Made by a program: the position numbers and the translations under genes. From assembly GCA_017936265.1 (NCBI GenBank), contig JAGBFX010000028.1:1-47008 (forward strand): a stretch of DNA of 47,008 bases, written 5' to 3'. The DNA is from Bacteroidaceae bacterium (GTDB lineage: Bacteria > Bacteroidota > Bacteroidia > Bacteroidales > Bacteroidaceae). This document shows positions 25,988 to 43,730 of the stretch, one piece after another. Under the pieces are notes generated by a model, which had not been told where the DNA came from, did no database searches, and saw nothing but the letters and a program-made list of their open reading frames with translations. How positions within the stretch are numbered: position 1 is the stretch's first letter; each line of letters opens with the position of its first letter.

Positions 25988-26057
25988 CCGGAACCGCCAG
26001 AATGCGAGCAAGCCATGAGACACACTCCAATACGTAATACTTCATTAAGGTACTATT

Positions 26058-28277: not shown

Positions 28278-28302
28278 TTAAAATGAATATAATGTGACAA
28301 TT

Positions 28303-28698
28303 ATGAAAAACATCATCAAGCGTTCTTTTTTCTTAATTTCGGTCATCGCCAATTGTCTGTCGCTGTCTTCATGCAGTCCTGAGCTATGGATGGGTGTTGC
28401 AGAAGGATTAATGGGAATGTCGTCTTATGGTATGTACAACACATCGTACCCATCATCATATGGTTCATCATCGTATGGATCGTATGGTTCATCATCATCT
28501 TCATCATACAGTTCATCATCAAGTAAATGCAGTAGGTGTAACGGGACAGGAAATTGCAAGACATGTGGAGGTAGCGGAAAGGTTTATGATTATGGTCCGG
28601 CCAGCGTAATTTCAAAAGAAAAATACACCCACAACTGCGGAGTTTGTAATGGGACTGGGCGATGTGGTGTCTGTGATGGAAAAGGATACATAAAATAA
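28303..28698 (+). CDS. Lipoprotein with DnaJ-type zinc motifs
   Basis: 131-aa protein. Signal peptide with lipobox LSSC (Cys24) predicts a lipoprotein. A Ser/Tyr/Gly low-complexity linker (about residues 45-80, repeated YGSSSYGSYGSSS) is followed by four CxxCxGxG motifs: CSRCNGTG, CKTCGGSG, CGVCNGTG and CGVCDGKG. That is the full set that binds two zinc ions in DnaJ, but there is no J domain. The ATG at 28303 is used rather than an in-frame GTG at 28294. It is the first gene of the AT-rich cassette. A zinc-finger protein-binding or redox role in the envelope is inferred. Confidence 0.7.
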   Translation: MKNIIKRSFFLISVIANCLSLSSCSPELWMGVAEGLMGMSSYGMYNTSYPSSYGSSSYGSYGSSSSSSYSSSSSKCSRCNGTGNCKTCGGSGKVYDYGPASVISKEKYTHNCGVCNGTGRCGVCDGKGYIK

Positions 28699-28754
28699 GT
28701 AACATTGGGGATTGTTATCAATCCAACAACAGCACAATAGTAATTAATAACATC

Positions 28755-30209
28755 ATGAGCAGGTATGATATTTTCATAAGCTACCGGAGAAGGGAGACTG
28801 CAGACAAAGCAGAACACCTTTTTACTCTTTTCGAACATGAGGGATATAAAGGACGCGTCAGCTTTGATAGAGAAAATCTTGATGGCAGATTTGACATTGA
28901 AATTCTTAATCGATTAGACAATTGTAAAGATTTTATTGTTATTCTTAGTCCTGACACTTTGTCTGCTATTAGATGGGAAGATACCGGGTGGTATAATAGA
29001 TTGGCCTATTGTACTGTTGATGAGTTTCCTAAGATAGAAATGGAGATGAAAAAAGCCGGTAGAATTTTAGACTTTGTTCGATTGGAAATAGCTAGAGCAT
29101 TAGCCAAAGGCAAACATATCATTCCTATAGTACCTATCAATTCCCCGACCTATAATTTCGATGATTTAAAGTTAACTGATGACATATGCTTATTGACAAA
29201 ACAGCATGCAGAAAGGTATCAGGACACGAAAGACTTTCTGTTTAAAGACATTCTTCCGAGAATTGTCAAACGTCTCAAAAGTCATCCCCCAAAACTCATC
29301 TTGACTAAATTTACCCTAACCATAGTATTATCCATTATTCTTATTGCTTGTATGGTCGGATGGATAAAATGGAACAATGAAAAGAATTTTTTTCAAAGTT
29401 GCCGTACGCAATCGGAATTTGAAGAATTTGGTAAAAACGCATATTTCTTTCACTCAGAATGTGCAGATAGTTTATCCTGTTTTAAGACATTGGTTCGAAG
29501 CAATATTCCAATAAATGATGCATTGAATATTGGGGGGAAAGACTCAATACGAGTTTGTTGGAGTGCCGATTGTTCACTAAAACAATTACGCATCCTAAGA
29601 AAAATGATCAATAATATGATGCTTGTAGAAAGTGGGACATTTATAATGGGAAGTAAAAATCCCGTTGGACTGGAAGAATTTGAGAGGCATGTAACCATTG
29701 AAGATGATTATTATATTGGTAAGTTTGAGGTCTCCGAGCTAGAGTGGAATATTATTATGTCAGACTCTGCATTTGGAAGCGATCATTTACCTATTGCAGA
29801 AGTTTCATGGAAGGAAAGTCAGCAATTTGTAAGAAAACTTCAGACGTTAACGGGCTTATTGTTTTCATTGCCTACTGAAATACAATGGGAATATGCCGCA
29901 AAAAAGAATGGTGATTCAGAGTGGATTTATGCCGGTAGCAGTAATTCTGAAGAGGTTGCGAATTATAAGGAATCATCCCAAAACGGAGACATTGAAGAGG
30001 TTGATTCCAGGAAGCCCAATGGGCTTGAACTCTACCACATGTCTGGTAATGTATCGGAATGGTGTTTAGATGGGAACAACAATAGAAAACGCATCAGAGG
30101 AGGTTCGTTTATGAGTTCTTGTGAAGAAATAACAGTTTCATATTCTGATGTGGCATCTATAGATAACAAAAGTAAAACTATAGGTCTTCGATTGGTCCTA
30201 AATCAGTAA
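28755..30209 (+). CDS. TIR-TM-SUMF1/FGE-like signalling protein
   Basis: 484-aa protein. Residues 1-130 are a TIR domain: YDIFISYRRRETADKAEHLF, then FIVILSPDTLSA and LDFVRLEIARALAKGKHIIP. Glu111 sits where the catalytic glutamate of NAD-cleaving TIRs is found. A transmembrane helix at about 184-205 follows basic residues (KRLKSHPPK), predicting a cytoplasmic TIR. The C-terminal part (about 287-484) is a formylglycine-generating-enzyme/SUMF1-like domain (MMLVESGTFIMGS, LPTEIQWEYAAKK, GNVSEWCLDG, IRGGSFMSS, IGLRLV) outside the membrane. Bacterial FGE-like domains often bind rather than modify. It lies 4 nt before the next exported protein gene. Codon use is AT-rich. NADase activity is inferred. 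Confidence 0.85.
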   Translation: MSRYDIFISYRRRETADKAEHLFTLFEHEGYKGRVSFDRENLDGRFDIEILNRLDNCKDFIVILSPDTLSAIRWEDTGWYNRLAYCTVDEFPKIEMEMKKAGRILDFVRLEIARALAKGKHIIPIVPINSPTYNFDDLKLTDDICLLTKQHAERYQDTKDFLFKDILPRIVKRLKSHPPKLILTKFTLTIVLSIILIACMVGWIKWNNEKNFFQSCRTQSEFEEFGKNAYFFHSECADSLSCFKTLVRSNIPINDALNIGGKDSIRVCWSADCSLKQLRILRKMINNMMLVESGTFIMGSKNPVGLEEFERHVTIEDDYYIGKFEVSELEWNIIMSDSAFGSDHLPIAEVSWKESQQFVRKLQTLTGLLFSLPTEIQWEYAAKKNGDSEWIYAGSSNSEEVANYKESSQNGDIEEVDSRKPNGLELYHMSGNVSEWCLDGNNNRKRIRGGSFMSSCEEITVSYSDVASIDNKSKTIGLRLVLNQ

Positions 30210-30213
30210 CAAT

Positions 30214-30861
30214 ATGAGGCGAATAGTACTAATTTCATTTTGTTCCTTGTTTAGCATTATATCTTATGCACAAAGCGAGGACTTTCATAAGGTGTATGAG
30301 GCTTGTAAGCTAGCACAATCATCGATGAGTCTAGGAGAAGGCAGTCAAAACGAAATTGTAGAAGCTGCAAGTTTATTGACATCCTTAAGATGGGCACCAC
30401 TTATTTTACAAGAGTTTGATATCAAACATGAAGCCTCTATGAAAAACCATTTAGTATTTTCTCCAGAATTTTTGAGCGATGTCGCAAAAAAACGTAGCGT
30501 GTATAAACGAGCTAAGGAATATGCCAAGGAACAAATTGCCACACAACGAGGAGGCGATGTAAAACTATGCACAAAATGCATAAAAGGAGAAGGGAAAGTC
30601 ATATATGCCATGCGACATCGAGGTGGAAGTTTTAATGTCGCAGCAGTCGCGGAAGTGAATGGCTTAATAAACTTGAGTGTAATAGTCAAAGACACAAATG
30701 GTAACGAATCCAAACCGTATAAGACAAGTTCTGAGGAATTTAAGGGTGCAAGTTTTCGCAAACTCGAGAATATCCAAGTACCAAAAGGGAATTCCAAGGT
30801 TTACATATCCATTGAAAATAAATCTAAGAAAGACAGAAGTGTAGCAATCATAGTAGAATAA
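30214..30861 (+). CDS. Exported protein of unknown function
   Basis: 215-aa protein with signal peptide MRRIVLISFCSLFSIISYAQ (cleavage after about residue 19). The mature part is helical for ~110 residues (FHKVYEACKLAQSSMSLGEG). It is then beta-rich, with a single CTKC pair near 122 and segments such as LINLSVIVKDTNGNESKPYK and KVYISIENKSKKDRSVAIIV, suggesting a small beta-sandwich. No family recognised. It is packed 4 nt after the TIR-FGE gene and 15 nt before the CHAT gene, so all three probably work together, perhaps as a periplasmic adaptor. Confidence 0.65.
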   Translation: MRRIVLISFCSLFSIISYAQSEDFHKVYEACKLAQSSMSLGEGSQNEIVEAASLLTSLRWAPLILQEFDIKHEASMKNHLVFSPEFLSDVAKKRSVYKRAKEYAKEQIATQRGGDVKLCTKCIKGEGKVIYAMRHRGGSFNVAAVAEVNGLINLSVIVKDTNGNESKPYKTSSEEFKGASFRKLENIQVPKGNSKVYISIENKSKKDRSVAIIVE

Positions 30862-30876
30862 AATAAGTTAAGTAAA

Positions 30877-33636
30877 ATGAGAAGATATCCATTTCTTTTG
30901 ATATTAATATTGCAGGCATCTGTTGCTTTCGCGCAAACAGAGCAAGCTAAGGCAATGTATGCAGAGGCGACAAATGGGAAATTGCCAACAAGTCAATACT
31001 TAAAACGAGATTTCACAAAAGTCGACTCTACTTCCATGCATGATCTGGCAGTATTATTCTATAGAGCAAACGATTATGTGTCAGCTGGTATTTGTTGGGA
31101 AGTTGCATTAAGTAAGGTCAAGAAACATGGTAAAGCATATGAGCAGATTATAAATTGTCTGTCTTCTGTATATTCAGAGGACACTGATCCACAAAAAATA
31201 CAATGGCTCTTACAGGTAATTGAAGAACACAATCAACAAGAACTATTAAAAGAGTGTAATGATTATAAATGTAAGCTTGAACGAGCTCTATATTACATTA
31301 CACAAGGCGATGAAGTGAAAGCTAAAGCCCATATTAAAGAATCTTTAGAGCTATGCGAGAACGAAGAGCAGCGTGTAGAAGTAGAAGAGGCATACGCTAG
31401 AATACTATTTGATATTCATGACTATGAAGGAGCTGCACAATATTATCATTCTGCCGCAAATCGATGGAAAGAACTTGGCAACATTGAGAAGTACATTGAC
31501 GCGATGTATTGGTCTGCACAGAATTATATTATCTCTTCAAAGTATATGGTAGCTGAAGAATATTCACGCATAGCAGCAGACTTGTCTAAGGACAATACAA
31601 CCGAAAATGGGAAAAAGAAATATATTCTCCATCTTGCTTGTTTAGGAGATGCTTTATTCTGTCAGCAAAAATATTCAGAGGCATTAGAAGTATATAAAGA
31701 AGAGTTTGAAATCTGTAAAGAGATAATGCCTGATAGTGAAAAGCACGCTGATGCCCTAGAAGACATTGGCAAAGTACAAGTTCGTTTGAAGCTATTCGAT
31801 GAAGCTAAAGCAAGTTTACAACGGGCATGTGATATTTATAAGTCACTTAGGCTCGACAGCAAATACTCGAATACATATACCGAACTACTAATCTGTTTGC
31901 GTAAAGCAGGAGAAGACAGTGTGGCAGACTCGATGGAGCAAGAAGCCCATAATAAGCGTAAATTGGTATGGGAACGTCTACTTGAAAGCGAATTAAAGAA
32001 TCTATCCACCACGGAAAAATATCTTAGCACTATGGTTTATACGAATTCTTTAAACACCATTGCCGGGAGCTATTATGGTCTCGACCAATATGAAGATGCC
32101 GCACATTATTTTGAACTTTATACAGAGAGCCTTAGAAAGATGCTTCAAGAAAAGTTCCTTCTACTCACTTATGTTGATAGAAAAAGAGTGTGGGATGAAC
32201 AACAACGACATATAGATGACTACCGGTTCAATGTTGCTGCATTGCCAGACTCCGCAACAGATTTAATGCCATTATATGTTCCTGTTTTATACGATATGGA
32301 ACTTATTTCCAAAGGTATCATGCTAAATTCAGTCATTGAATTTGAAAAAGTTTTGGAAAAGAAAGGAGACCGGGATTTGTTGGAAATGTATTATGAAATC
32401 AAAGACAACCAACAACTGATAGAAGAATTACAATCTAAAGTATCTGATGAAAATCTACAAAAGGTACTCGATTTGAAACAAACCAATGCCAGTTTGCAGC
32501 AAAAACTTATGATTAGTTGTGCTACCTATAGTGATTATACTAAATACTTGTCATATACCTGGAGAGATATTCAAGCACAATTAGATAAAGAAGATATAGC
32601 AATTGAATTTACTACCGTTCCATTATCTCCTCTGGATAAAGACAATTACATATTAGCTTTAATACTAACATCTACAGGAGAGCCCACTATGTCTGTCATA
32701 AGTACAAAGGCTATTCTGAACAATATGAAAAGTAAAGAAGACCTATATGACAATAGTCAATATTATAACCTGATATGGGGTTTTATACAGGAACATCTCA
32801 TTGGTAAACAACGTGTATATTTCGCTCCTGACAATAACTTAAGCGATATCGCTATAGAATATTTAAGTGATGGTCAAGAAACATTCTTTGAAAAATATGA
32901 GGTTTATCGCCTATCTTCAACAAAGGAACTTTGCCGAGACTATTCTGAAACAACTGCATCAAAATCTATTACCATATTTGGTGATATTGACTACAATACA
33001 GAGTTGGTTGCAGAAAATAGAGGTGGAATCTCTTTTGGGAAATTAGAGTATGGAAAGGAAGAAATAGATGGAATAAAGTCTTTTATCAATAAGACTTTTA
33101 AGACCACTATTTATGAGGGGAAGAAAGCCACAGAAAAGCAGTTTAGAGAACTATCAAATAGAAATCCGTTGATTCTACATATCTCTTCGCACGGAGAATA
33201 TGATGGGGATGACAGATTAAATGAAACTGATGCAATGGAGAACAGTTTGCTTGCTTTAAGCGGTGCAAATGCCGGTTCGGATGACATTCTTAATGATGGC
33301 ATCATTACAGCCGCAGATGTCGCTATGATGAATCTTCATCAATGTGACATGGCGGTTCTTTCTGCTTGTAATACAGGTATAGGAAGTAAAGGCACTGATG
33401 GGATATTTGGTCTACAGCGAGGTTTCAAAAACGCAGGAGTCCATTCTCTGCTAATGAGTCTAAAGCCGGTATACGATGAAAGTACAGCCAAGCTTATGAT
33501 TGCTTTTTATCAAGGGATGGCACAAGGAAAATCAAAGCGGCAATCTCTTCTTGATGCTCAAAATGCAATCAAAGCAATGGGATATAAAGAAGGAAAGTAT
33601 TGGGCTCCGTTTATTTTGTTGGATGGAATAAAATAA
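30877..33636 (+). CDS. Exported TPR-CHAT caspase-like protease
   Basis: 919-aa protein. A signal peptide (RRYPFLLILILQASVAFA) is followed by tetratricopeptide-type helical repeats over about residues 60-480 (for example LGDALFCQQKYSEALEVYKE and DALEDIGKVQVRLKLFDEAK). The C-terminal ~310 residues are a CHAT domain of the caspase/gingipain clan. The catalytic pair is visible: His772 in LILHISSHGEYDGD and Cys831 in MAVLSACNTGIGSKGTDGIF, with RGFKNAGVHSLLMSLKPVYD after it. The family length of 800-1100 aa fits. Caspase-like CHAT proteases act in bacterial suicide pathways such as the type III-E CRISPR system, but those are cytoplasmic; an exported one beside a transmembrane TIR-FGE is notable. 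Confidence 0.9.
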   Translation: MRRYPFLLILILQASVAFAQTEQAKAMYAEATNGKLPTSQYLKRDFTKVDSTSMHDLAVLFYRANDYVSAGICWEVALSKVKKHGKAYEQIINCLSSVYSEDTDPQKIQWLLQVIEEHNQQELLKECNDYKCKLERALYYITQGDEVKAKAHIKESLELCENEEQRVEVEEAYARILFDIHDYEGAAQYYHSAANRWKELGNIEKYIDAMYWSAQNYIISSKYMVAEEYSRIAADLSKDNTTENGKKKYILHLACLGDALFCQQKYSEALEVYKEEFEICKEIMPDSEKHADALEDIGKVQVRLKLFDEAKASLQRACDIYKSLRLDSKYSNTYTELLICLRKAGEDSVADSMEQEAHNKRKLVWERLLESELKNLSTTEKYLSTMVYTNSLNTIAGSYYGLDQYEDAAHYFELYTESLRKMLQEKFLLLTYVDRKRVWDEQQRHIDDYRFNVAALPDSATDLMPLYVPVLYDMELISKGIMLNSVIEFEKVLEKKGDRDLLEMYYEIKDNQQLIEELQSKVSDENLQKVLDLKQTNASLQQKLMISCATYSDYTKYLSYTWRDIQAQLDKEDIAIEFTTVPLSPLDKDNYILALILTSTGEPTMSVISTKAILNNMKSKEDLYDNSQYYNLIWGFIQEHLIGKQRVYFAPDNNLSDIAIEYLSDGQETFFEKYEVYRLSSTKELCRDYSETTASKSITIFGDIDYNTELVAENRGGISFGKLEYGKEEIDGIKSFINKTFKTTIYEGKKATEKQFRELSNRNPLILHISSHGEYDGDDRLNETDAMENSLLALSGANAGSDDILNDGIITAADVAMMNLHQCDMAVLSACNTGIGSKGTDGIFGLQRGFKNAGVHSLLMSLKPVYDESTAKLMIAFYQGMAQGKSKRQSLLDAQNAIKAMGYKEGKYWAPFILLDGIK

Positions 33637-33866
33637 ACAATATCCTTTATATGGCTATAATTAATGAGAACAAATACTACAATAGAGAAGCTACGCATAT
33701 CGACATCTCTGCGCTTGTTAGAATGTCTTTTCAGATTACGTACCTATCCTGTAATAACTATTGAATATAAATAAAGATGTCAATGAAACAACTATATTTA
33801 ATAGTTTAAAATTCACGCAACAGTAATTCATTTACGGTGTAACTGTAATTTTATAAAAACAATTAT
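33637..33866. other. AT-rich gap after the CHAT gene
   Basis: Intergenic stretch marking the end of the AT-rich cassette. A 37-codon frame (33651-33764, MAIINENKYYNREATHIDIS...) starts 14 nt after the CHAT stop, but nothing supports it as a gene. No promoter consensus or terminator stem was found. Confidence 0.3.
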
Positions 33867-34328
33867 ATGAACATTGAAGAAATAAAGCATCTGTGCATAA
33901 ATAAAGAGCATGAACTGCTGGAGAAACATTTCGGTAACCTTGTGGCGGAAGCTGCACATGAGCAACCCGAGAGTATTGGAGGGTATGACATGGAGCTGCC
34001 ACGGAGGATTGAGAATGAATACAAAGAATTCCTGAGAGAATTATGGAGCGGAATTTCCACCGGAGACGCACGCTCGCTGGATGAAATACTTGAAGAGGTC
34101 AGACTGCGTTCGCTCATGGCTGAAAGCAGCAGAGAGGCCCTGGAACAAGCTCACAAGGATGCGACAGAGCAGACGCTATGGGAGAGGATTACCCACAGTA
34201 ACCATAAGGATGTTACATTCTACAAAGGGCTGCTGGAGGAATATACCAGAGAGAGGCTCTACGGCATAAGACGCGATTTCCTTGAAGAGGCTGCCGGGGA
34301 AGAAATAAAAGGTAAAGTCCGTGAATAG
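33867..34328 (+). CDS. Small helical protein, unknown function
   Basis: 153-aa acidic, almost fully helical cytosolic protein (MNIEEIKHLCINKEHELLEK ... ELPRRIENEYKEFLRELWSG). No signal peptide, membrane helix or known motif. Base composition returns to that of the genes before the AT-rich cassette. It lies 56 nt before the stand-alone RyR gene and may be co-transcribed with it. The family is not recognised; it could be a partner of the RyR protein. Confidence 0.6.
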   Translation: MNIEEIKHLCINKEHELLEKHFGNLVAEAAHEQPESIGGYDMELPRRIENEYKEFLRELWSGISTGDARSLDEILEEVRLRSLMAESSREALEQAHKDATEQTLWERITHSNHKDVTFYKGLLEEYTRERLYGIRRDFLEEAAGEEIKGKVRE

Positions 34329-34384
34329 ATGATAGATTCAACTGCTGGATTTGTTCTATAGATAAAAAAACAAAATTTGGAACA

Positions 34385-34675
34385 ATGAAAAACAGTTATG
34401 TACCGCAACCGGTGGATACAAGTGATATCCAGTTGCCAGAGGAGTTGAATGCATTAGTAGAACAGATGGCCAAGAATGTACATGAGGTATGGGCAAAAGG
34501 ACGCATCAAGGTGGGTTGGACATATGGTCCTGAGCGTTCTGATGAACTGAAACAGAATCCGTGCCTTGTGCCATATGAAGAACTTTCCGATGAAGAGAAA
34601 GAATATGACCGTAGTACTGCGCTTGAGACACTCAAGCTGATAAGCAAGCTTGGGTTCAGGATAACAAAGGAATAA
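34385..34675 (+). CDS. Stand-alone RyR-domain protein
   Basis: 96-aa protein that is one RyR (ryanodine-receptor-type) domain: VDTSDIQLPEELNALVEQMA, NVHEVWAKGRIKVGWTYGPE and LVPYEELSDEEKEYDR. It is closely similar to residues 241-326 of the C39-RyR protein at 24869, including the entry motif (I/V)D(I/T)SDIxLxEEL, so the two are recent paralogues or a split domain copy. RyR domains are thought to bind small ligands or peptides; the bacterial ligand is unknown. A perfect terminator follows at 34689. Confidence 0.85.
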   Translation: MKNSYVPQPVDTSDIQLPEELNALVEQMAKNVHEVWAKGRIKVGWTYGPERSDELKQNPCLVPYEELSDEEKEYDRSTALETLKLISKLGFRITKE

Positions 34676-34688
34676 GCAAGGTAGAGAA

Positions 34689-34740
34689 GAATAGATAAGC
34701 CTTCGGAATCAGATGATAGATTCCGAAGGCTTATCTATTC
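34689..34740 (+). terminator. Strong terminator after RyR gene
   Basis: Perfect 22-bp stem (gaatagataagccttcggaa + tc and its inverse) with an 8-nt loop agatgata, followed by TTTAT. It ends the sigma/RyR transcript block and separates it from the vWA gene. The rest of the 34741-34931 gap holds no gene. Confidence 0.85.
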
Positions 34741-34931
34741 TTTATATATGTGGTTGCAGAGTGTTGCACAGAACAGCTTGGAACAGGTTCCTTCACGGGA
34801 ATAGTCATATCAGCACCACTTTTATAGCACATACGTGATAGATTCAGGCAGTAATCTCTCTCAATATATCAAAATAAAGAGCAAAAAGGAAACTGTACAG
34901 AAAAACATATAATAATTTAAACCTCAGAATT

Positions 34932-35570
34932 ATGAAGACAAGAATTTTCAACCTCATCATCATAGATGAAAGCGGCTCAATGTGGAGCATCAAGGATGAA
35001 GCGATCAACAGTGTCAACGAAACCATCCAGACAATACGCGCAGCACAGGAGAAGCACGAGGAGCAGGAGCATTACGCTACCTTGGTAACCTTCAACAATG
35101 ACGTCAAGAGCATATATGAGTGCGTGCCTGTCGGCGAAGTCAAAGAGTTGAATGATGAAAACTACCACCCCAACTGCAGCACAGCGCTGTACGACGCGAT
35201 GGGAATGTCACTAAACGCTCTGCGCCCCAAGGTTGCCGAAGATGACAAGGTGGTTGTGACCGTTGTAACGGACGGCTATGAGAATGCTTCGAAGGAGTAC
35301 ACCGGCAAGGCCGTGAAGGCACTAATCGATGAGCTGAAAGCGAAAGGCTGGGTGTTCGCATACATAGGAGCGAATCAGGATGTCGAGGCTGTAGCTGCCA
35401 CCATTTCAATTACCAATGTGATGATGTTCGAGGCGACAAGCTCGGGCACTGCCGAGATGAGCAAGAAACTCAGTAGCGCAAGAAGCCGTCTCTTCGACCG
35501 CATGTCATGCAGCAGCTACAGCGCCGAGGAGGCAAACAAGGATTTCTTTGATGAGGATGAGAAACTTTGA
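34932..35570 (+). CDS. von Willebrand factor A domain protein (TerY-like)
   Basis: 212-aa cytosolic protein that is a single vWA fold. The metal-ion-dependent adhesion site is intact: DESGSM (DxSxS, residues 12-16), the threonine in the NCSTALYDAMG segment (residues ~81-91) and the aspartate in VVTVVTDGYENASKEYTGKA (residues ~108-127). The size and lack of signal or membrane segments match TerY-type vWA proteins, which scaffold metal-dependent complexes in tellurite-resistance-like stress systems. It may link to the TerB-like gene at 21.5 kb. It follows a terminator, so it has its own promoter, which was not identified. Confidence 0.85.
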   Translation: MKTRIFNLIIIDESGSMWSIKDEAINSVNETIQTIRAAQEKHEEQEHYATLVTFNNDVKSIYECVPVGEVKELNDENYHPNCSTALYDAMGMSLNALRPKVAEDDKVVVTVVTDGYENASKEYTGKAVKALIDELKAKGWVFAYIGANQDVEAVAATISITNVMMFEATSSGTAEMSKKLSSARSRLFDRMSCSSYSAEEANKDFFDEDEKL

Positions 35571-35653
35571 TACCATAAAAGAGGTGCTATTGCAGCAGTA
35601 ATGTACCTTACAGTAGATATAAACAATAAACAAACAGATAAAACTGAATGACT

Positions 35654-36796
35654 ATGAAACTACTGACTAAAATTTTTCAGGCCTTGCTCGGTGTAGCAGC
35701 ATTGATACTCACAGCTCTGGTGGCTACAGGCCGCCTTACGTTGAAAGGAATACGCAATTGGTGGAGAAAGCGCTCCAAATGGTTGCGCAGAACCATCAAG
35801 GTCATTGCATCGCTTATTTTGCTTGTATGCCTGATAGAGTACGGGTATGACATCTACAAGGAAAACTACGGCCGGAGTTATTGGGATGACAGCACTTTGT
35901 CGGAGAACATAATGATTCATTCCTTCAATGATGAGACCTACCGTCTGTATGACTGCGAGAATGATAAATATCTGACACCCAAGATTGACTGGGTCAGATA
36001 CGGTTCAGACTCAATTGCCGTATACGCATTGAACGGAAAGCGCGGATTCCTCAACCGTTACACGGGAGAGATTATAATCGATGCCGAGAAGAACAGATAC
36101 AGCAAAGCATGGGTATTCTCGGAAGGTGTCGCTGCAGTAATGAAGGATGAGATGATCGGATTCATTGACCCGGACAACCATATTGTAATACCGTTCCAAT
36201 ACCCGAAATGTGATGAGGAGTATTTCGAGACAGATTACCTGTTCCACAACGGATACTGCTGCATGACAAATAGGGAAGGCAGACAGGGAGTCATAGACAA
36301 GAAAGGGAACTGGGTTGTGGCACCGGAATACGGCATGGTTTATGAACCTGCGGGCAACGGCATGCGCATTGTTATCAAGAACGGCAAGTATGGCGTGCTG
36401 GATGCCGATATGAGATTGCTCTACCCTACCGAGTATGATGATATAAGCATTATAGGGGACGGCAACGGCATTGTACTTGCCAAGGAGGGACGCATGTGGC
36501 AAGTGGATGATAAGGGTAATGTTACAAACCCGTTCCTTTTTGACTGCAGCTATTGGCTGGACTGTCCCGAAGGGTACAACGAAGACGGCTGTATCTCGAA
36601 CGGCCTCTCGCGCTATGCAAAATATGAAGTCAAAGGGTGCTATGGTGTCCTTGACCGTTTCACAGGCAAGGCATTGACCCTGGCAATATACAGCGAGATA
36701 AACATGCTCTCGCCCGAAACATTCGAGGTACAGGACCCACACACATATGACTGGCACGTGATTGACAGCAATGGCAACAGAACAAGCCAGCAATGA
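35654..36796 (+). CDS. Membrane-anchored WG-repeat protein
   Basis: About 380-aa protein. Hydrophobic helices at roughly residues 6-26 and 48-65 flank a strongly basic loop (NWWRKRSKWLRRTIK), so the loop should be cytoplasmic and the long C-terminal part outside. The C-terminal ~300 residues carry WG-type beta repeats (GKRGFLNRYTGEIIIDAE, DEMIGFIDPDNHIVIPFQYP, GRQGVIDKKGNWVVAPEYG, GKYGVLDADMRLLYPTEYDD). WG repeats are common in Bacteroidetes surface or periplasmic proteins and may bind ligands. An ATG two codons earlier (35648) is equally possible. It is 83 nt after the vWA gene. Confidence 0.75.
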   Translation: MKLLTKIFQALLGVAALILTALVATGRLTLKGIRNWWRKRSKWLRRTIKVIASLILLVCLIEYGYDIYKENYGRSYWDDSTLSENIMIHSFNDETYRLYDCENDKYLTPKIDWVRYGSDSIAVYALNGKRGFLNRYTGEIIIDAEKNRYSKAWVFSEGVAAVMKDEMIGFIDPDNHIVIPFQYPKCDEEYFETDYLFHNGYCCMTNREGRQGVIDKKGNWVVAPEYGMVYEPAGNGMRIVIKNGKYGVLDADMRLLYPTEYDDISIIGDGNGIVLAKEGRMWQVDDKGNVTNPFLFDCSYWLDCPEGYNEDGCISNGLSRYAKYEVKGCYGVLDRFTGKALTLAIYSEINMLSPETFEVQDPHTYDWHVIDSNGNRTSQQ

Positions 36797-37113: not shown

Positions 37114-38760
37114 ATGAATATGGGATGGTTCAAAAACATGAGCGAACATGTGTATTCAGGCAGACATGGCAGTTCTACATGCTCAAACAAAGAGCGTTTG
37201 GAGAATCCTGCGTCAAAGGCGATAATATACAGAAGTGAAATAGATTATATTTCACGCTGCATCCTTGATTATCCGAATATTGAAACAGGAGGACAACTGT
37301 TCGGTTACTGGACTGCATTGGGTGTACCTGTAGTGATGTACGTCATAGGCCCGGGCCGCAATGCCCAGCACAACCCGACATCGTTCATTCAGGACCAGAG
37401 CTATCTGCAAGAGGTGGGCAAGGAACTGCATCGCATATTCCGTCTGCAGCACATTGGAGAATGGCATTCCCATCATCAGCTTGACCTGGCACAGCCCAGC
37501 GGTGGCGATGTAAATACCATGCAGTACGGAGTCGGGAAACCAGGGTTCCCGAGACTTTTGCTTTGCATTGGCAACTGCACTGCAACGCATACTACTGTAA
37601 ACGCATTCAACTTCCATGAGAGAGACCCGAGGAACTACACTCAGGCACGGTGGGATATTGTGGAGACAGACAGTCCTTACAGGAAACTTGCCGATGAAGA
37701 GTTGAGACGTATGCTCATTCATCCATACACACGACACGCCTCACATGCCGACCTCAACACAAGAAACAGAGCTGCAAATGAGAGCGATAGGACCGTTTCC
37801 CATTGGCTTATGGAAAAGCCCGAGAATGTAGAGATGATGAAAGCCTTCATAAGCAGAATCGAGACTGCGTTCCCCGCCACTCCGGCCAAAGCTGTGATGC
37901 TCCAGTCGGGCGAGCCTGCAATAACGTTCAATGACAGCAAGAATCAGATAAAGCTACCGTATGGATTCCCACACAAAGCACCCGAACTTTACAAACTGGA
38001 TGCTTCGGGACACGAGACTCCGTTTAGTCCAAATGGGAGAGAACCGGTCTGGAATCCATATACACAGGAACTTTTGTCGGCCTTCAATGAATGGGTGGCC
38101 TCAATATTCACCAAAGAGGACTGCGCATGCGGGACACCGGCAGTACAGGATGACACAACGGTTACCCCAAAAGTCCAGGAGGAGCAAGGTGACAATGGTA
38201 TGCAGGTAAAACCTGTCTGCTCAGGACCGGCCACAGTTGTTGAGTCTGCAACAGAAAGCCCGACAACGGCCACCGGCAGCATCATCTCAAAATACAAGGA
38301 GATTCTGAACGAGAAACTGCCCCGGAATGCATGGGCCTGGAACGAGACAGCATGTGGCACAGTCATACACATGTTGGCATTCCCGGCAATCATCAACCAG
38401 CAGGTGATTCTCAGAATGGTCCTAAGGCCTGAACAGCAACCCGAGGTAATGATTGCCAATTGTTTCGTTGATGAATGCATACATGAGTTGCCCGAAGGTT
38501 TTGACTACATGGAGTATTTCAGCCTAGCCGACGGGCTATTCCCACATGCCGCGGTATTCCATGAGAAGATGAGCGCATGGGAGAAATACAAGTCCGTTTA
38601 CCGCTCATATCTCTCATTATGTGTAATACTCGAACAGCATAAGAGGAACATCGACGGCGACAGAGGCGCATACGATGTGCTGAGAAAAATTATCGAAGAT
38701 GAAGAGCTGTTGAGCATAGCATTGAACAGTATTGAAAAAATATGTCTAACTAATAAATAA
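37114..38760 (+). CDS. JAB/JAMM-domain protein of the ubiquitin-like cassette
   Basis: 548-aa protein. The N-terminal ~190 residues are a JAB/MPN metalloprotease domain: Glu57 in IETGGQLFGYW and the zinc motif WHSHHQLDLAQPSGGD with His118, His120 and Asp132. The spacing from His120 to Ser129 has one residue more than the classic HxHx7SxxD. Such domains remove ubiquitin-like modifiers. Residues ~240-330 (PAITFNDSKNQIKLPYGFPH) form a beta-rich segment that may be a degenerate E2/RWD fold; this is uncertain. A variable linker (~330-390, Pro/Thr-rich) leads to a helical C-terminal domain (~395-548) with no known family. It is 7 nt before the E2-like gene. ATGs at 37114 and 37120 are both possible. 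Confidence 0.85.
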   Translation: MNMGWFKNMSEHVYSGRHGSSTCSNKERLENPASKAIIYRSEIDYISRCILDYPNIETGGQLFGYWTALGVPVVMYVIGPGRNAQHNPTSFIQDQSYLQEVGKELHRIFRLQHIGEWHSHHQLDLAQPSGGDVNTMQYGVGKPGFPRLLLCIGNCTATHTTVNAFNFHERDPRNYTQARWDIVETDSPYRKLADEELRRMLIHPYTRHASHADLNTRNRAANESDRTVSHWLMEKPENVEMMKAFISRIETAFPATPAKAVMLQSGEPAITFNDSKNQIKLPYGFPHKAPELYKLDASGHETPFSPNGREPVWNPYTQELLSAFNEWVASIFTKEDCACGTPAVQDDTTVTPKVQEEQGDNGMQVKPVCSGPATVVESATESPTTATGSIISKYKEILNEKLPRNAWAWNETACGTVIHMLAFPAIINQQVILRMVLRPEQQPEVMIANCFVDECIHELPEGFDYMEYFSLADGLFPHAAVFHEKMSAWEKYKSVYRSYLSLCVILEQHKRNIDGDRGAYDVLRKIIEDEELLSIALNSIEKICLTNK

Positions 38761-38767
38761 CCTATTT

Positions 38768-39214
38768 ATGGATAATCAAAGAAGAGCACTTGAAGAGCAA
38801 GTGATTTCACATTACCTCTCCAGTAATGCCTATCAGTTCGGCAATCTTGGAACAAGACGTCCATATCTGCGTATTGCAGCAAGGACAAACTCGGGCAACA
38901 CATATGTTCTTCGCATAGAGATGGAGAACTATCCCAACCAGAAGCCCGACGCATACGTAGAGTGCATGCTCACGGACTGTCACGGGAAACCGATGAATAC
39001 CGCAAGCAGCCCTAACCACACACTCTCTCCACATGCAAACGGCTGGACACAGATATGCCATTACCACCCGAGCGCATGGCGCCCCGACATGTCGTTGTGG
39101 ATGGTGTACGTACGTTGCGTTCTTTGGCTAAATATCTATGAGCAGACCAAAAGGACAGGAAAAGATATGGAATATTATCTCAAGCATATGGGCGAGAACG
39201 GACAAAGAATATAA
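38768..39214 (+). CDS. E2-like ubiquitin-conjugating-fold protein
   Basis: 148-aa protein with an E2 (UBC) pattern: N-terminal helix, beta meander (TYVLRIEMENYPNQKPDAYV, with the YPxxxP signature), then SPHANGWTQICHYHPSAWRP. Here His89-Ala-Asn91 stands in for the E2 HPN motif, Cys97 is the candidate catalytic cysteine and Trp104-Arg-Pro matches the WSP segment. A C-terminal helix closes the fold. The gene sits between the JAB and E1 genes, as in bacterial ubiquitin-like conjugation operons (Bil and CBASS Cap2/Cap3 are characterised relatives of the idea). E2 activity is inferred from motif and position. Confidence 0.75.
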   Translation: MDNQRRALEEQVISHYLSSNAYQFGNLGTRRPYLRIAARTNSGNTYVLRIEMENYPNQKPDAYVECMLTDCHGKPMNTASSPNHTLSPHANGWTQICHYHPSAWRPDMSLWMVYVRCVLWLNIYEQTKRTGKDMEYYLKHMGENGQRI

Positions 39215-39236
39215 TTAACTAAAAAAACAGAATAAT

Positions 39237-39428
39237 ATGTCACAGGAACTTAACCTTGATGCGCTTTCTGAAGCAATGCGCAAACAACAAGAAGGAAACG
39301 GCAACGGCAAGAAGATTGTATGGGACAAGAACACGATGTCATTCAAGGAGTTGGGTACATTCGAGAGAGCCAATGATGAGCAGAGCCCGATCAACGATGT
39401 ATCTACAAGACCTTTCTTTACAAAATAA
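39237..39428 (+). CDS. 63-aa protein between E2 and E1 genes
   Basis: Small acidic/polar protein (MSQELNLDALSEAMRKQQEG ... STRPFFTK). An N-terminal helix is followed by a Gly/Asn linker (GNGNGKK) and a WDKNTMSFKELGTFERANDE segment with little predicted order. It lies 22 nt after the E2-like gene and 8 nt before the E1-like gene, where a modifier is expected. But it is shorter than a beta-grasp ubiquitin fold (~70-75 aa) and ends in PFFTK without a Gly-Gly. It could be a processed or unusual modifier, a substrate tag or an E1/E2 cofactor. Family not recognised. Confidence 0.65.
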   Translation: MSQELNLDALSEAMRKQQEGNGNGKKIVWDKNTMSFKELGTFERANDEQSPINDVSTRPFFTK

Positions 39429-39436
39429 TTCAGGAT

Positions 39437-40693
39437 ATGATTACAGAAGACGATTATAAGAAACAGGTATACTACGTCGATGGAGAACTGCTCGATGATT
39501 TCGTGAAATCGGACAGCACAGCAGTCTCCGGCGTAGGATACGAGTGGGAGAACGAAGGAGTTGTACATCTTCATTTCACTCCAAGGGAGCATGGATTCGG
39601 AACACAGCATATCGTAAGTTTCGCCAAAGAGAACGGCACGCACTCCGACAGCGCTACAATTCTTGTGGATGTAGCCAATGACGGCACTGCCAAGGTGGGC
39701 GATGTTGATGTGACCTGCATTCCCTCTCGCGAGAACCTGTACACCCGCAACAAGGGATTGATTGAACTGGATATTCTCTCTAACAAGAGAGTTCTTATAA
39801 TCGGTCTTGGAAGCGGTGGTTCCCCCATTGCTGTAGAACTGGCAAAAGCTGGTGTCGGACAGTTTGTCCTTGTCGATTTCGACAGGGTTGAGCTGCATAA
39901 CCTCTCACGCCACATCTGCTCGATTGAGGATTTGGGCCGACTGAAGACAGATGCAGTATGCGACGCCATAAAGGGCAAAAACCCTTACGCCGAGGTAATA
40001 AAGCTGCCCATTGACATGAACAAAAACCTCGACATCATGGAAGAGGAGTTCAGAAAGGCGGATATCATTCTGTGCTGTACCGACAACAACAAGTCAAGGT
40101 TCAACACATCGGACTTGCTATTCAAATACAAGAAAGTAGGAATCTTCGGAAGAGCCATTACGCGTGCCGAGGGCGGCGATGTCTTCATTTACCGTCCAGG
40201 AGGCCCTTGCTACTTCTGTCTGCTCGGAAATGACTGGTTCGACCCCACACAGGAGGAGGTAACCAACGAACAGTCGGCACGCAGGTCGGGACAGATTGCG
40301 GCATATGCATCACAGGATGATGTCGAAGCTATTGTACAGGTAGGTCTTGGAGCCGACATCGAGCCAATCAGCAACATGATGGTCAAACTGGCTCTTATGG
40401 AGCTCTCAAGAGGCGCAAATTCCGGTATCTCATCACTTGAGCAGGAGTTCACCATGAACTACTACATATGGGCCAACCGTCGTGAGAGACACTATTCGAA
40501 CTGGGGATGCTTTACCAATTCCGACGGGATGCCGACTATCATGAGGTGGTATGGCATGAACATCACAGCCAATGACGACTGCACCCTTTGCGGCAACAGG
40601 GAGAAACTGGCGGTAGGAGAGAATTTCATGGAGTCTCTACGCGCCATGGGCTCTGATAACCTCGAAGGTCTGGCACTGCCCGAGGAGAATTGA
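39437..40693 (+). CDS. E1-like (ThiF/MoeB family) activating enzyme
   Basis: 418-aa protein. A beta-rich N-terminal extension of about 110 residues precedes the ThiF-type adenylation domain. VLIIGLGSGGSPIAVELAKA holds the ATP-binding GxGxxG (Gly123-125-127). VLVDFDRVELHNLSRHICS is the conserved D-x-D...N-x-x-R segment, and ILCCTDNNKSRF the later Asp loop. Cys pairs PCYFC (near 258) and CTLC (near 382) should bind a structural zinc. The thioester cysteine cannot be assigned from sequence alone. It follows the 63-aa gene by 8 nt. The expected role is to adenylate the C-terminus of a ubiquitin-like protein and pass it to the E2 at 38768. Confidence 0.88.
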   Translation: MITEDDYKKQVYYVDGELLDDFVKSDSTAVSGVGYEWENEGVVHLHFTPREHGFGTQHIVSFAKENGTHSDSATILVDVANDGTAKVGDVDVTCIPSRENLYTRNKGLIELDILSNKRVLIIGLGSGGSPIAVELAKAGVGQFVLVDFDRVELHNLSRHICSIEDLGRLKTDAVCDAIKGKNPYAEVIKLPIDMNKNLDIMEEEFRKADIILCCTDNNKSRFNTSDLLFKYKKVGIFGRAITRAEGGDVFIYRPGGPCYFCLLGNDWFDPTQEEVTNEQSARRSGQIAAYASQDDVEAIVQVGLGADIEPISNMMVKLALMELSRGANSGISSLEQEFTMNYYIWANRRERHYSNWGCFTNSDGMPTIMRWYGMNITANDDCTLCGNREKLAVGENFMESLRAMGSDNLEGLALPEEN

Positions 40694-40768
40694 TGAGGCT
40701 GCTGCCCCACACATGCAGTCCGGTAGTTGTGAGGACTATTTTTGACAATCAGTTATAGAAAAAACAGT

Positions 40769-43033
40769 ATGTTGGATTTTTCAAGATTCAGCCCCGAGGT
40801 TCTGCAAGCGATAGAGACCTCTGCACATATTGCCAAGAACTTCAACTGCAACGAAGTCACGCATTGCCACATGGTTATCGGATTGGCCAATGTTGACGGA
40901 CAGACAGTATGTAATGTCCTTAGGCAGCATGGCTATGATGAGAACCTCACCATGGAGGCTATCGCACAGCACCTGAACACCATCTCCTCGGGCAATCCCA
41001 ATGAAGGAGTCGGTTTCAACGAGGAGCTGCTGAATGCATTCGTTGCAATATCTTCAGGCACACAGAGCGTAACGCTCTTCGGCATGGCACAGGAATTGAT
41101 AGGACGTCCCTCTGCCCTGCTCTCTTCGTGTCTGAAGAGACGGGCAGAGATGCCACAAACAGGCGGCAATAATGTCCCGACAGGGATTCAGACACCAAGA
41201 AACGAAGTGCAGCCAGCACAGGCCACAGCCGAAAATGGCCAGCAGCTGCGTGACTACAACGATGATGACTCCTCTACCGGAGGAACCATCAAGCGGTTCT
41301 GCACCAACATGGTAAGACTTGCCGCTGAGGGCAAGATAAACCATGCGATAGGACGTGATGAGGAGTTGCAGCGAGTGCTTCTGATACTGGCACGCAATAC
41401 CAAGAACAACCCCGTCCTTGTGGGCGAGCCCGGTACCGGCAAGACCGCCATTGCAGAAGAGCTTGCCATGAGACTATACAAAGGAGTTGTACCCGAAGAA
41501 CTTGCCAACCTCAAGCTCTACAGCCTCGACTTCACGACAGTGAAATCCTCGGGTGACGCTGTGGGCGTAATGAAGTCTATACTCGAGGAGGCGACAGCCG
41601 ACCCGAACCTGGTGCTGTTCATCGATGAGATACATATGATAATCAGCGCATGCAACTGCTCGGACAACGACATTGCCAACCTGCTGAAGCCGGCGATGGC
41701 ACGTGGCGACATAAATATCCTTGGAGCAACGACAATCGATGAGTACAAACGTATCGAGAAGGACCCGGCATTCGAAAGACGTTTCCAGAAGGTAATAGTG
41801 GATGAGCCCGACATAGAGTCGGCAATCAAGATAGTGACCGGCGCCAAGGGACGTTTCGAACAGTTCCACGAGGTAACTATCCCCGATGAGGTATGCAAGG
41901 CGGCTGTAACGCTCTCGGCACGCTACATCACAAACCGCAAGCTTCCCGACAAGGCGTTCGATCTGTTGGATGAGGCAGCGGCCAACCTCAGAATCATGGA
42001 GGACGGGCGCGACATCATGGAGGTCAATGACCTGGCTGTGGTTGTGACCGCATGGACCGGTATCCCAGTCGATGCCCTCGATGAGAACGAGACCGAAAAG
42101 CTGAAGAACATTGAGAAGATTCTTCACGAGTCGGTTGTAGGTCAGGAGAGAGCCATAAAGGCAGTATCGGCCGCCATCAAGCGCAACATGCTGGGATTGA
42201 GCGACCCCTCACGACCTATCGGCACATTCCTGTTTCTCGGTACGACCGGAACTGGAAAGACCGAGTTGTGCAAGGCCGTATCGAAGTTCCTCTTCAACGA
42301 CAGGAACGCTATGGTACGCATTGACATGAGTGAATATCAGCAGGAGTATTCTGTATCAAGGCTATTCGGTGCTCCTCCGGGATACGTAGGATACGAGCAG
42401 GGCGGACAGTTGACCGAAGCTGTAAGACGCAAGCCTTTCAGTGTGGTCCTTTTCGATGAGATTGAGAAGGCTCATCCAAAGGTATACGAGACATTGCTGC
42501 AGGTTCTTGATGACGGCCGCATGACCGACGGTCAGGGAAAGGTCGTTGACTTCAAGAACACGCTTATCGTGATGACATCGAACATGGGACAGAGACATAT
42601 ATTCTCGACCATCTGCGGGCACGAACCTACAGAGGATGAGATTGCGACATGTACCGAGAAGGTTGTCAATGAGCTCCGCTCAAGGGTCGCACCCGAGTTC
42701 ATCAACCGCATCGACAACATTGTCATGTTCCTGCCGTTGACCAAGGAGGACTCGGCCAAGATAGCCGAGATAAATCTGAAGAAGGAGCTGAAGAAGTTCA
42801 AGGATATGAAGGTTGAACTGGTCATTGCTCCCGAAGTAACCGGTTACATCGTAGAACGCGGTTACAAGCAGGAGTATGGAGGAAGAGAGATAAAAAGAGC
42901 CATTACCGAGCATATCGTTAACCCGCTGACATCAAAGATTGTCGATGGGACACTGAGCAAGGAAGCACCGATATTGGTATGTTTAACTGATAATATGATA
43001 GAATTCAAGAATGGCACTACCACCAGGATTTGA
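40769..43033 (+). CDS. ClpA-like double AAA+ unfoldase
   Basis: 754-aa class I Hsp100. The Clp-N repeat domain covers about residues 1-150, then a Gln/Thr-rich linker. AAA-1 has Walker A GEPGTGKTAIAEELA near 220 and Walker B LVLFIDEIH; AAA-2 has Walker A LGTTGTGKTELCKA near 489 and Walker B VVLFDEIEKAHPKVYE. No long ClpB/ClpC middle coiled coil is present, so the layout is ClpA-like. In AAA-2, after TSNMGQ, the stretch RHIFSTICGHEPTEDE shows no IGF/IGL-type ClpP-docking loop, so it may act without ClpP. The ATG at 40769 is preferred to an in-frame TTG at 40742. It is 75 nt after the E1 gene, suggesting that modified proteins are unfolded. Confidence 0.92.
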   Translation: MLDFSRFSPEVLQAIETSAHIAKNFNCNEVTHCHMVIGLANVDGQTVCNVLRQHGYDENLTMEAIAQHLNTISSGNPNEGVGFNEELLNAFVAISSGTQSVTLFGMAQELIGRPSALLSSCLKRRAEMPQTGGNNVPTGIQTPRNEVQPAQATAENGQQLRDYNDDDSSTGGTIKRFCTNMVRLAAEGKINHAIGRDEELQRVLLILARNTKNNPVLVGEPGTGKTAIAEELAMRLYKGVVPEELANLKLYSLDFTTVKSSGDAVGVMKSILEEATADPNLVLFIDEIHMIISACNCSDNDIANLLKPAMARGDINILGATTIDEYKRIEKDPAFERRFQKVIVDEPDIESAIKIVTGAKGRFEQFHEVTIPDEVCKAAVTLSARYITNRKLPDKAFDLLDEAAANLRIMEDGRDIMEVNDLAVVVTAWTGIPVDALDENETEKLKNIEKILHESVVGQERAIKAVSAAIKRNMLGLSDPSRPIGTFLFLGTTGTGKTELCKAVSKFLFNDRNAMVRIDMSEYQQEYSVSRLFGAPPGYVGYEQGGQLTEAVRRKPFSVVLFDEIEKAHPKVYETLLQVLDDGRMTDGQGKVVDFKNTLIVMTSNMGQRHIFSTICGHEPTEDEIATCTEKVVNELRSRVAPEFINRIDNIVMFLPLTKEDSAKIAEINLKKELKKFKDMKVELVIAPEVTGYIVERGYKQEYGGREIKRAITEHIVNPLTSKIVDGTLSKEAPILVCLTDNMIEFKNGTTTRI

Positions 43034-43730
43034 CCCCACCAGGATGTCATTCGGGCCTTCAACCCCGGTAATTGGCATTCCAAGGAACAACAGCACATCA
43101 TCAAGCAGCAGCTACAGCAGTTACAGCAGCAACAGGGCATCATTGTGGTCGAGATTCAATTCGGCGGTAGCCGAGATAGGCAACTGGTTCGCCGACCATA
43201 TCGAGAGCGCAATCAGCGTATGCTGCATGCTGGTCATAGGTGCTGTCGCCATAACAGGAATAATATACGTTATTGGAGCATTGATTAGTGAAGGTCTATT
43301 AATGGCTATTATCACAGGTATCATTGCATTCATTATCGGCTACATCTGTGTCGGAATAGGATGGTACGTCATACTGTTTGGCGTGAACATAGTGATGTAC
43401 GGACTAAGAATAATATTCTGGAACGGTTGGACACTGCTTCTGGCCATCGCTCTGTTCATTGGCACATCTGTCAGCAGCTGCGTCCAGGAGAATCACAGAT
43501 ATGTTCCCGAGGAAGTAGTAGAGCAGGTCGACATGACACCGAGAATATACAGATGTATTGCCAGAGCACTCAATGTCAGAAGTGCTCCAAGCACCTTAGG
43601 CACAATCCTCGGTGCCATCAGAGAGGGCGATGAGGTTGAAGTATTGGAGGAGGTAAACGGTTTTGCCCGCATAGAATACAAAGGCAAGAACGGCTATGTA
43701 AGCACCGAATACCTTAAATGGGTACGTTGA
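43011..43730 (+). CDS. Membrane protein with C-terminal SH3-type domain
   Basis: 239-aa protein whose start overlaps the Clp gene end by 23 nt. An N-terminal Ser/Tyr-rich disordered stretch (about residues 28-42) is followed by hydrophobic helices at about 65-90, 93-120 and 123-160 (ITGIIYVIGALISEGLLMAI, TLLLAIALFIGTSVSSC). The C-terminal ~60 residues are a bacterial SH3 domain (IARALNVRSAPSTLGTILGA, GDEVEVLEEVNGFARIEYKG, NGYVSTEYLKWV), the type that binds peptidoglycan or peptides. It may anchor or sense for the E1-E2-Clp unit at the envelope. A perfect terminator follows at 43768. Confidence 0.8.
   Translation: MALPPGFDPTRMSFGPSTPVIGIPRNNSTSSSSSYSSYSSNRASLWSRFNSAVAEIGNWFADHIESAISVCCMLVIGAVAITGIIYVIGALISEGLLMAIITGIIAFIIGYICVGIGWYVILFGVNIVMYGLRIIFWNGWTLLLAIALFIGTSVSSCVQENHRYVPEEVVEQVDMTPRIYRCIARALNVRSAPSTLGTILGAIREGDEVEVLEEVNGFARIEYKGKNGYVSTEYLKWVR

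Follow-up and report, generated by a model that had tools for sequence, protein, structure and literature searches.

The stretch of DNA analyzed here, called the window below, is an entire contig of 47,008 nucleotides (nt) from a Bacteroidaceae bacterium (assembly GCA_017936265.1, contig JAGBFX010000028.1, C49 in our numbering), whose genome of 2.4 Mb is spread over 62 contigs, and our subject is a six-gene operon that may encode a ubiquitin-like conjugation system with an overlooked small modifier. A first-pass annotation of the letters had described it as a ubiquitin-conjugation-like operon coupled to a ClpA-type unfoldase, and the six open reading frames (ORFs) were confirmed at the positions that it gave, all on the + strand, with gaps of 7, 22, 8 and 75 nt followed by a 23-nt overlap. 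The last of these gaps is counted from the ATG start of the Clp gene (40769), with which the starts of its relatives align, rather than from the alternative TTG at 40742. The features are the following:

37114-38760, + strand: JAB/JAMM metallopeptidase (residues ~37-175), followed by a weak RWD/E2-like segment (~222-345) and a C-terminal extension, assigned from profiles and alignment
38768-39214, + strand: E2 (UBC)-like enzyme with Cys97, His84, P56/P60, W104 and W120, assigned from alignment and profiles
39237-39428, + strand: proposed modifier of 63 amino acids (aa), with an N-terminal helix (by eye), a hairpin and a conserved C-terminal tail (RPFF plus 2 residues)
39312-39353, + strand: putative beta-hairpin segment of the modifier, KIVWDKNTMSFKEL, from column conservation, the hairpin being predicted from sequence
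39387-39425, + strand: C-terminal tail of the modifier, PINDVSTRPFFTK, with F or Y at residue 60 in all 58 rows
39437-40693, + strand: E1-like adenylating enzyme of the ThiF/MoeB family, with an N-terminal part of ~95 aa and two CxxC pairs
40769-43033, + strand: ClpB-type AAA+ protein with two ATPase domains and an N-domain (by alignment), without M domain and without the D1 pore-loop aromatic
43011-43730, + strand: membrane protein with a C-terminal SH3_3 domain and, near its N-terminus, a stretch resembling the hairpin of the modifier, PGFDPTRMSFGPS

Pfam matches in the window are ThiF (2.2e-34), AAA_2 (3.1e-65), ClpB_D2-small (2.5e-16) and SH3_3 (8.4e-16).

Distribution of the operon and conservation of its enzymes

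Relatives were sought with a five-row E1 alignment in the named genome collection, where the E1 of the window by itself had found none, and 57 loci were obtained, 56 of which are counted here (L025-L080); the remaining one, L081, was set aside as a simple ThiF match. The figure of at least 56 related loci, taken from 80 candidate stretches, is probably a lower bound. According to the record titles these loci belong to Bacteroidota, Fibrobacterota, Kiritimatiellota, Spirochaetota, Chlorobiota, Cyanobacteriota, Actinomycetota and one Desulfovibrionaceae metagenome-assembled genome (eight phyla), most of the records being metagenome bins, in which a few host labels may be wrong. Among nearer genomes the operon is rare and patchy, as a two-row E2 profile found a match in 4 of 393 genomes of the order (the genome of the window included), a five-row profile in 3 of 395 genomes of the phylum and a 56-row profile in 2 of 44 genomes of the genus. 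An E1 search of 60 relatives revealed one close operon (G013, 57% identity), the remaining matches having partial coverage, nearly always of the ThiF part; G013, G245, G063, G527 and G714 seem to be L030, L063, L065, L071 and L077 met a second time, and G392 is additional. No relatives were found among the viral contigs scanned with the E1 alignment, and a phage collection yielded one distant, unannotated record with an E1-like gene and without a convincing modifier match.

The core of the system consists of the JAB, E2, small-protein and E1 genes. All 56 loci contain an E2 and 52 contain a JAB, and in the other four the JAB gene would lie off the contig end, since E2 starts at base 1-291 of the locus. 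The order JAB-E2-small protein-E1 was retrieved by script in 49 of 52 loci; two actinobacterial loci have the order small protein-E1-JAB-E2, and L077 has JAB-E2-second E2-tandem small protein-E1.

The JAMM residues singled out in the first-pass annotation (Glu57, His118, His120 and Asp132) proved to be invariant, together with S119 and S129, in all 53 JAB proteins aligned, and they follow the pattern E...HxH(x7)S(x2)D of the JAMM metal site. PADLOC JAB models reach 6e-13 with the window protein, and its Prok-JAB match in Pfam is below the family cut-off. The segment that follows the peptidase domain bears a weak resemblance to the E2 profile in hhalign comparisons (P 1.3e-4 and 2.1e-4, probability 54% and 46%), and the C-terminal extension was not seen in four relatives aligned with the window JAB.

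Likewise, the E2 Cys97 pointed out earlier is invariant in the 56-row alignment (L062 and L067 left out as truncated), as are E9, Y46, P56, P60, H84, W104 and W120. The E2 profile matches and the conserved arrangement of a Cys with an upstream His suggest a UBC-fold E2, and give the proposal of a ubiquitin-like conjugation operon good support at the level of sequence. The most frequent PADLOC E2 model matches 31 of the 56 E2 members (best 3.2e-11), and Pfam assigns RWD to 5 of them, Prok-E2_E to 2, Prok-E2_A to 1 and UQ_con to 1 (best 2.5e-4). A comparison of the E2 profile with PDB chains returned zero matches at E<=0.1, which counts against the UBC assignment.

The E1-like protein matches the ThiF profile and displays the GxGxxG motif, the D, R and K residues and both CxxC pairs. 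The two former claims on its motifs stood: 56 of 57 rows have the glycines (G123/G125/G128), the remaining row being truncated there, and all 57 have the cysteines C258/C261/C382/C385, while the main adenylation residues are invariant with the exception of one truncated row. The CxxC pairs are presumably zinc ligands, as in MoeB. Besides these pairs no cysteine is invariant in the 57 rows (the next Cys column reaches 40/57), and the enzyme does not display the conserved catalytic Cys beyond the zinc ligands that marks a canonical thioester-forming E1. The E1 profile matches MoeB best (4e-22), and its other matches include MccB (1.6e-18), PaaA (4.6e-13) and Bub (3.7e-6). The matches to MccB and PaaA, together with radical-SAM-like motifs near 9 of the 56 loci, would also suit the maturation of a ribosomally synthesized and post-translationally modified peptide, in which the small protein is the precursor, the ThiF enzyme activates it in the manner of MccB or PaaA and the JAB cleaves it. 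Nevertheless, no such motif was seen near the other 47 loci, and an E2 with an invariant Cys accompanied by a JAB at every testable locus points to protein conjugation; we regard peptide maturation as very improbable.

A small protein encoded beside E2 and E1

The main new point of this analysis is the candidate modifier and the putative hairpin code, the enzymes belonging to known families. The first-pass annotation did list the 63-aa gene, but it missed both the family conserved at every related locus and the hairpin in common with downstream proteins. With a profile built from 43 small proteins, a member of the family is detected at each of the 56 loci, and the window protein, which was outside the seed, is recovered at 2.8e-5. 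The gene lies between E2 and E1, or before E1 in both actinobacterial loci. With starts chosen by hand the proteins are 56-82 aa long, exceeding 70 aa in four rows (in L032, where the frame is open for 162 aa, the last 64 were used), and they comprise a probable N-terminal helix (by eye), a predicted hairpin (LVFNPxTGEF) and, at the C-terminal end, a tail. Conservation over the 58 aligned rows is highest at hairpin positions 27, 29, 34 and 36 and in the tail, where residue 60 is always F or Y and the following residue is A, F or Y. Most tails are of the type [DE]GF[AF], YY or YF types also occur, and the window has RPFF; the last residue of the motif is A in 38, F in 11 and Y in 8 of the 57 rows counted. 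Between the motif and the stop codon there are 0 residues in 18 rows, 1 in 16, 2 in 8, 3 in 3, 4 in 2 and 5 in 8, in a count of 55 rows that leaves out two rows fused to E1 and takes the second unit only of L077. The tail type tracks the E1 tree, with GFF/GYF in one nine-row clade, YY/YF in a nine-row Barnesiella-Treponema clade and GFA/GYA elsewhere, the RPFF of the window being an exception. L077 encodes two tandem units, both ending in KDGFA; in L037 and L049 the small protein is fused in frame to the E1 N-terminus, its tail thus becoming internal; and the L043 and L078 proteins begin with an additional short stretch that resembles the tail.

Ubiquitin is made as tandem and fused precursors, E1 enzymes require a free C-terminus, JAMM peptidases can expose or release such ends and E2 cysteines carry them. 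A modifier gene would be expected to look like the one found here, a short gene that adjoins E2 and E1, whose product ends in a conserved tail and also exists in tandem and fused forms, and we give a probability of roughly 0.6 to the operon being a compact ubiquitin-like conjugation pathway in which the 63-aa protein would be the modifier. E1-E2 enzymes can accept a protein of another fold, since in the cyclic oligonucleotide-based antiphage signaling system (CBASS) Cap2 (E1-E2) conjugates a non-beta-grasp protein via a conserved C-terminal Gly or Ala, according to PMC10097602.

The fused forms lend themselves to another explanation, namely that the small protein serves E1, or an E1-E2-JAB complex, as a regulatory or docking subunit, and that some other protein is conjugated, as the CD-NTase is in CBASS. 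Besides the fusions in L037 and L049, and perhaps a weak one in the E1 of a Bradyrhizobium plasmid, the similar hairpin on downstream proteins is suggestive of a docking element. A subunit is nonetheless unlikely in our view, as conservation peaks at the C-terminal tail with the protein end 0-5 residues beyond, L077 has two tandem units with the same tail, and another small gene common to the loci was not noticed, although no systematic search was made.

A comparison of the 58 rows with Pfam (best 0.0076) and NCBIfam (best 0.0041) gave no convincing family. The window protein has one weak Pfam match, to Multi_ubiq (E=0.02), which, in addition to the position of the gene adjoining E2 and E1, could indicate an ordinary Bil/Bub-type system whose 63-aa protein is a beta-grasp ubiquitin-like protein diverged beyond sequence recognition. 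However, this match is seen in 1 of 58 members only, the order of helix, hairpin and tail (by eye from conservation) differs from the beta-grasp order, and ~60 residues with a variable Gly-rich linker make a short protein for that fold; a hidden beta-grasp domain thus appears quite unlikely. The modifier profile also matches the designed SAKe proteins of the PDB (best 1.7e-8, over ~20 residues), which are Kelch-like; kinship with them was rejected, the match being ascribed to a DPxTG hairpin in common.

Strong modifier matches (E<1e-10) among the 393 genomes of the order, taken as the same sample as that of the E2 search, fell in the same four genomes as the E2 matches; three of these four are represented in the profile, and the informative part is consequently the absence elsewhere. 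Four weaker matches in the order (3.5e-5 to 0.006; L106-L109) were viewed, and none is a stand-alone modifier with an E1 in the 3 kb covered. Two further E2-matching genomes of the phylum search also hold the modifier (they seem to be L071 and L077 again). When seven genomes or records were searched through their loci, five genomes gave one strong match each, the known copy adjoining E1, and no strong match came from the two plasmid records, those that carry distant clusters. In L106 (1-2016; G272:C281) the modifier-like stretch (E=3.5e-5) lies in the middle of a protein that by eye also seems to contain Ig-like, vWA-like and OmpA-like regions.

Downstream proteins, the Clp-type ATPase and the proposed pathway

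A hairpin similar to that of the small protein recurs in many proteins encoded downstream. In the first gene after the core (the Clp gene being skipped, within 3.3 kb), the N-terminal 40 residues contain the pattern [YF][ND]xx[TS]Gx[FLWMI] at 23 of 53 loci. Of the other downstream genes 6 of 220 fit this pattern, which was chosen after viewing examples, and these six lie further along the same clusters in L029, L030, L038 and L048; of the remaining genes 0 of 483 fit it. Forty-three hairpin-bearing or variant proteins, collected by hand, include 13 with SH3_3 and 27 with a membrane segment according to a crude hydropathy rule. In the window the SH3 protein begins with FDPTRMSF and the modifier has WDKNTMSF, the usual glycine being lost in both and MSF in common. 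Cognate hairpin pairs are more alike than shuffled ones (mean 26.7 vs 23.0 +/- 1.4; 28 of 10,000 shuffles as high), in a test on 26 pairs (2 dropped) with hand-chosen pieces and kinship uncorrected. As a lead, we suggest that the hairpin may be a docking element common to the modifier and the downstream proteins, and possibly a conjugation address. The DPxTG hairpin also occurs in unrelated proteins (the SAKe designs and L109), and alone it is not diagnostic, because the 157-aa protein of L109, which looks like DUF1987/SiaC, carries the same hairpin. In the same genus, L015 (1-1531; G008:C82) holds a lone E1-N-terminal-like fragment beside a protein that starts with the hairpin, MALVFNPRTGMFEER, and this is perhaps an operon remnant.

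As to the Clp gene, its conservation beside E1, proposed earlier as a check on the coupling, was borne out only in part, within a single lineage. Besides the window, 23 of the 56 loci carry the gene downstream of E1 (at a distance of up to 700 nt in 22 of them and of 3.8 kb in one), but in the E1 tree (56 rows, the frameshifted L051 left out) all 24 Clp rows sit in one 33-row clade with 9 Clp-less rows, and outside this clade there are 0 of 23; six Clp-less loci (L041, L065, L067, L071, L072 and L077) have less than 3 kb of downstream sequence. Clp was for this reason rejected as a core component and is considered an accessory of one lineage. The at least four gains or losses that the tree requires, the absence outside the clade and the nine gaps inside it would even be compatible with an unrelated neighbour that takes no part in the pathway. 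This seems somewhat doubtful, given that Clp starts within 40 nt of the E1 end, or overlaps it, in 13 of the 23 loci, that its D1 pore loop is unlike the ones in the two further Clp-type proteins that this genome encodes, and that records titled as three different phyla contain Clp together with the module.

Of the 24 Clp proteins 20 were parsed, and all 20 are without the KY[RK]G aromatic of the D1 pore loop, whereas both other Clp-type genes in the genome of the window keep it (AKYKGEFE, TKYRGQFE). The subclade of the window (7 of 8 parsed) has a shorter D1 loop and no M domain. The D2 pore loop is GYVG or GYIG in 24 of 24, and the window protein is below the NCBIfam cut-offs (ClpB, 747 of 1232 bits). 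A loop [IL]G[FL] is the ClpP-docking mark of ClpA and ClpC; no such pattern was seen in the D2 part of the window Clp, 20 of the 24 proteins being parsed, and an IGF that may or may not belong to such a loop occurs in the Clp proteins of L050 and L053. A ClpP gene is present elsewhere in the genome, but the window Clp has no obvious docking loop, and we infer that this ATPase may remodel rather than degrade. A Cdc48-like, modify-then-unfold role is possible and would fit a protein with no obvious loop of this kind and no D1 pore aromatic; the earlier interpretation is, as a whole, partly supported. In L014 (810-3676; G013, the same locus as L030) the surroundings of the operon encode two extra Clp-type N-domain proteins without ATPase domains, the first of which contains a hydrophobic segment plus Cys-rich repeats, while the second ends in a hairpin-like segment.

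If the small protein is indeed the modifier, the residues beyond its tail motif would be trimmed by the JAB, and the exposed C-terminus would be adenylated by E1, whose residues for this reaction are conserved. The modifier would then be received by Cys97 of the E2, perhaps straight from the adenylate, a direct attack that is suggested by an E1 without an invariant cysteine besides the two CxxC pairs. Attachment to target proteins would follow, and the JAB could also take the modifier off. The hairpin-bearing and often membrane-bound downstream proteins might dock at the site used by the modifier hairpin, as substrates or as receptors, and in one E1 clade the added ClpB-type unfoldase may extract or disassemble tagged complexes without degradation. 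The full scheme, with a non-beta-grasp modifier of ~60 residues made of helix, hairpin and tail and produced also as tandem and E1-fused precursors, a hairpin address code on the N-termini of membrane receptors or effectors, a lineage-specific non-proteolytic ClpB-type segregase, and a pathway that evolved apart from ubiquitin, is put forward tentatively and as a possibility that we ourselves would not yet favour.

Several observations weigh against these proposals. The tail does not end in the C-terminal Gly (Gly-Gly) of ubiquitin-like modifiers, and the window protein has M and P in place of the conserved glycines G34 and G59. The second small-protein copy of L047 has a diverged tail and that of L029 stops before the tail. 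The fusions to E1 are equally compatible with an E1 subunit, the resemblance to the modifier at the N-terminus of the Bradyrhizobium E1 (L087) is weak (E=5), and the modifier profile misses a 57-aa protein of the distant cluster L088. The radical-SAM-like genes mentioned above would be expected also under peptide maturation. Finally, 30 of 53 first downstream genes miss the strict hairpin pattern, some of them being near variants (e.g. L032 and several of L055-L061), and Clp is absent from 33 of the 56 other loci.

Should the small protein be conjugated, ubiquitin-type enzymes would handle modifiers of more than one fold, and the operon would offer a bacterial model for tag recognition coupled to an unfoldase. 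It would also explain a scattered, unnamed gene family that, at ~60 codons, is easily missed.

Known systems and neighbouring clusters

The operon is different from Bil, from CBASS and from classes 6a-6e of Iyer et al. 2006 as these are described in section 14 of PMC1779556. Type II CBASS (PMC10097602 and PMC12355090) likewise combines E1 and E2 chemistry with a JAB (Cap2/Cap3) and conjugates a non-beta-grasp CD-NTase by its C-terminus, where Gly or Ala is conserved; in contrast, the window has separate E1 and E2 genes and a dedicated ~60-aa protein, and no CD-NTase model match is listed among the 10 window proteins scanned. The Bil system (BilABCD) also has separate genes for a protein in the ubiquitin-like position, an E2, a JAB and an E1. 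PMC11354881 describes BilA with two ubiquitin-like domains, BilB with a CEHH motif and BilD with a Cys domain, but neither a BilA-like double domain, nor CEHH, nor a BilD-type Cys domain was seen in the window operon, and the CEHH spacing given there (C, +6 E, +8 H, +13 H) does not occur, only H98 (>=90%) and W104 (invariant) being conserved near C97. Classes 6a-6e resemble the operon in having JAB, E1-like and E2-like genes together, and class 6d, with a separate E2 plus a small protein, comes near it. However, the small protein of 6d has a conserved C-terminal Gly and a beta-grasp pattern, classes 6a-6c have E1-E2 fusions, and Clp or hairpin proteins are not described in section 14 (PMC1779556). 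Bub (BubCD), operons of which are reported by hundreds in PMC13373217, was compared by the E1 profile alone, and its match is weaker than those of MoeB, ThiF, MccB or Cap2. The window operon, as proposed here, would have in common with pupylation a modifier of ~60 residues, although it encodes E1, E2 and JAB. Pup itself is largely disordered, ~60 residues long and ligated by PafA. The Clp protein resembles ClpB and ClpA in its N-domain, two AAA+ domains and D2 pore loop GYVG, and departs from them in lacking the D1 pore aromatic and, in the subclade of the window, the M domain. In the literature searched, with most subscription papers outside reach, no publication was found that describes this operon together with a small non-ubiquitin modifier.

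Two distant clusters lie on plasmids. In L088 (3808-8714; an alphaproteobacterial Mesorhizobium plasmid) a 57-aa protein ending in LGGEY, a helix-hairpin by eye, is encoded beside an annotated E2, and the cluster also holds genes for a ThiF protein, a patatin and, as judged by eye, JAB-like and metallo-beta-lactamase-like proteins; a plasmid search with this E2 found only L088 itself. This one example hints at a possible second family of small modifiers and at a wider occurrence of the arrangement. L087 (4002-10372; Bradyrhizobium barranii plasmid) carries a distant Mov34/MPN-E2-like-ThiF cluster, after which come dsDNA-nuclease-domain and TIR genes, and the weak modifier-like segment at its E1 N-terminus may be a fusion.

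Radical-SAM-like proteins are encoded downstream of E1 in L030, L055, L057, L060 and L061, with five each in L060 and L061. Upstream of the operon, an island on the same strand (24262-36796) contains sigma-like (by eye), C39-RyR, TrkA-like (by eye)-RyR and Cys-rich DnaJ-like genes, followed in our inventory by TIR-FGE, TPR-CHAT, small RyR, vWA and WG-repeat genes. It looks like a separate conflict-type cluster, and its RyR, TIR-FGE, TPR-CHAT, vWA and WG genes were rejected as parts of the system, their phmmer homologs being found near 0-4 of 56 loci in flanks of up to 10 kb per side. At 12849-13382, just after an ORF ending at 12850, there are two short tandem arrays with periods of 106 and 90 and 2-3 copies.

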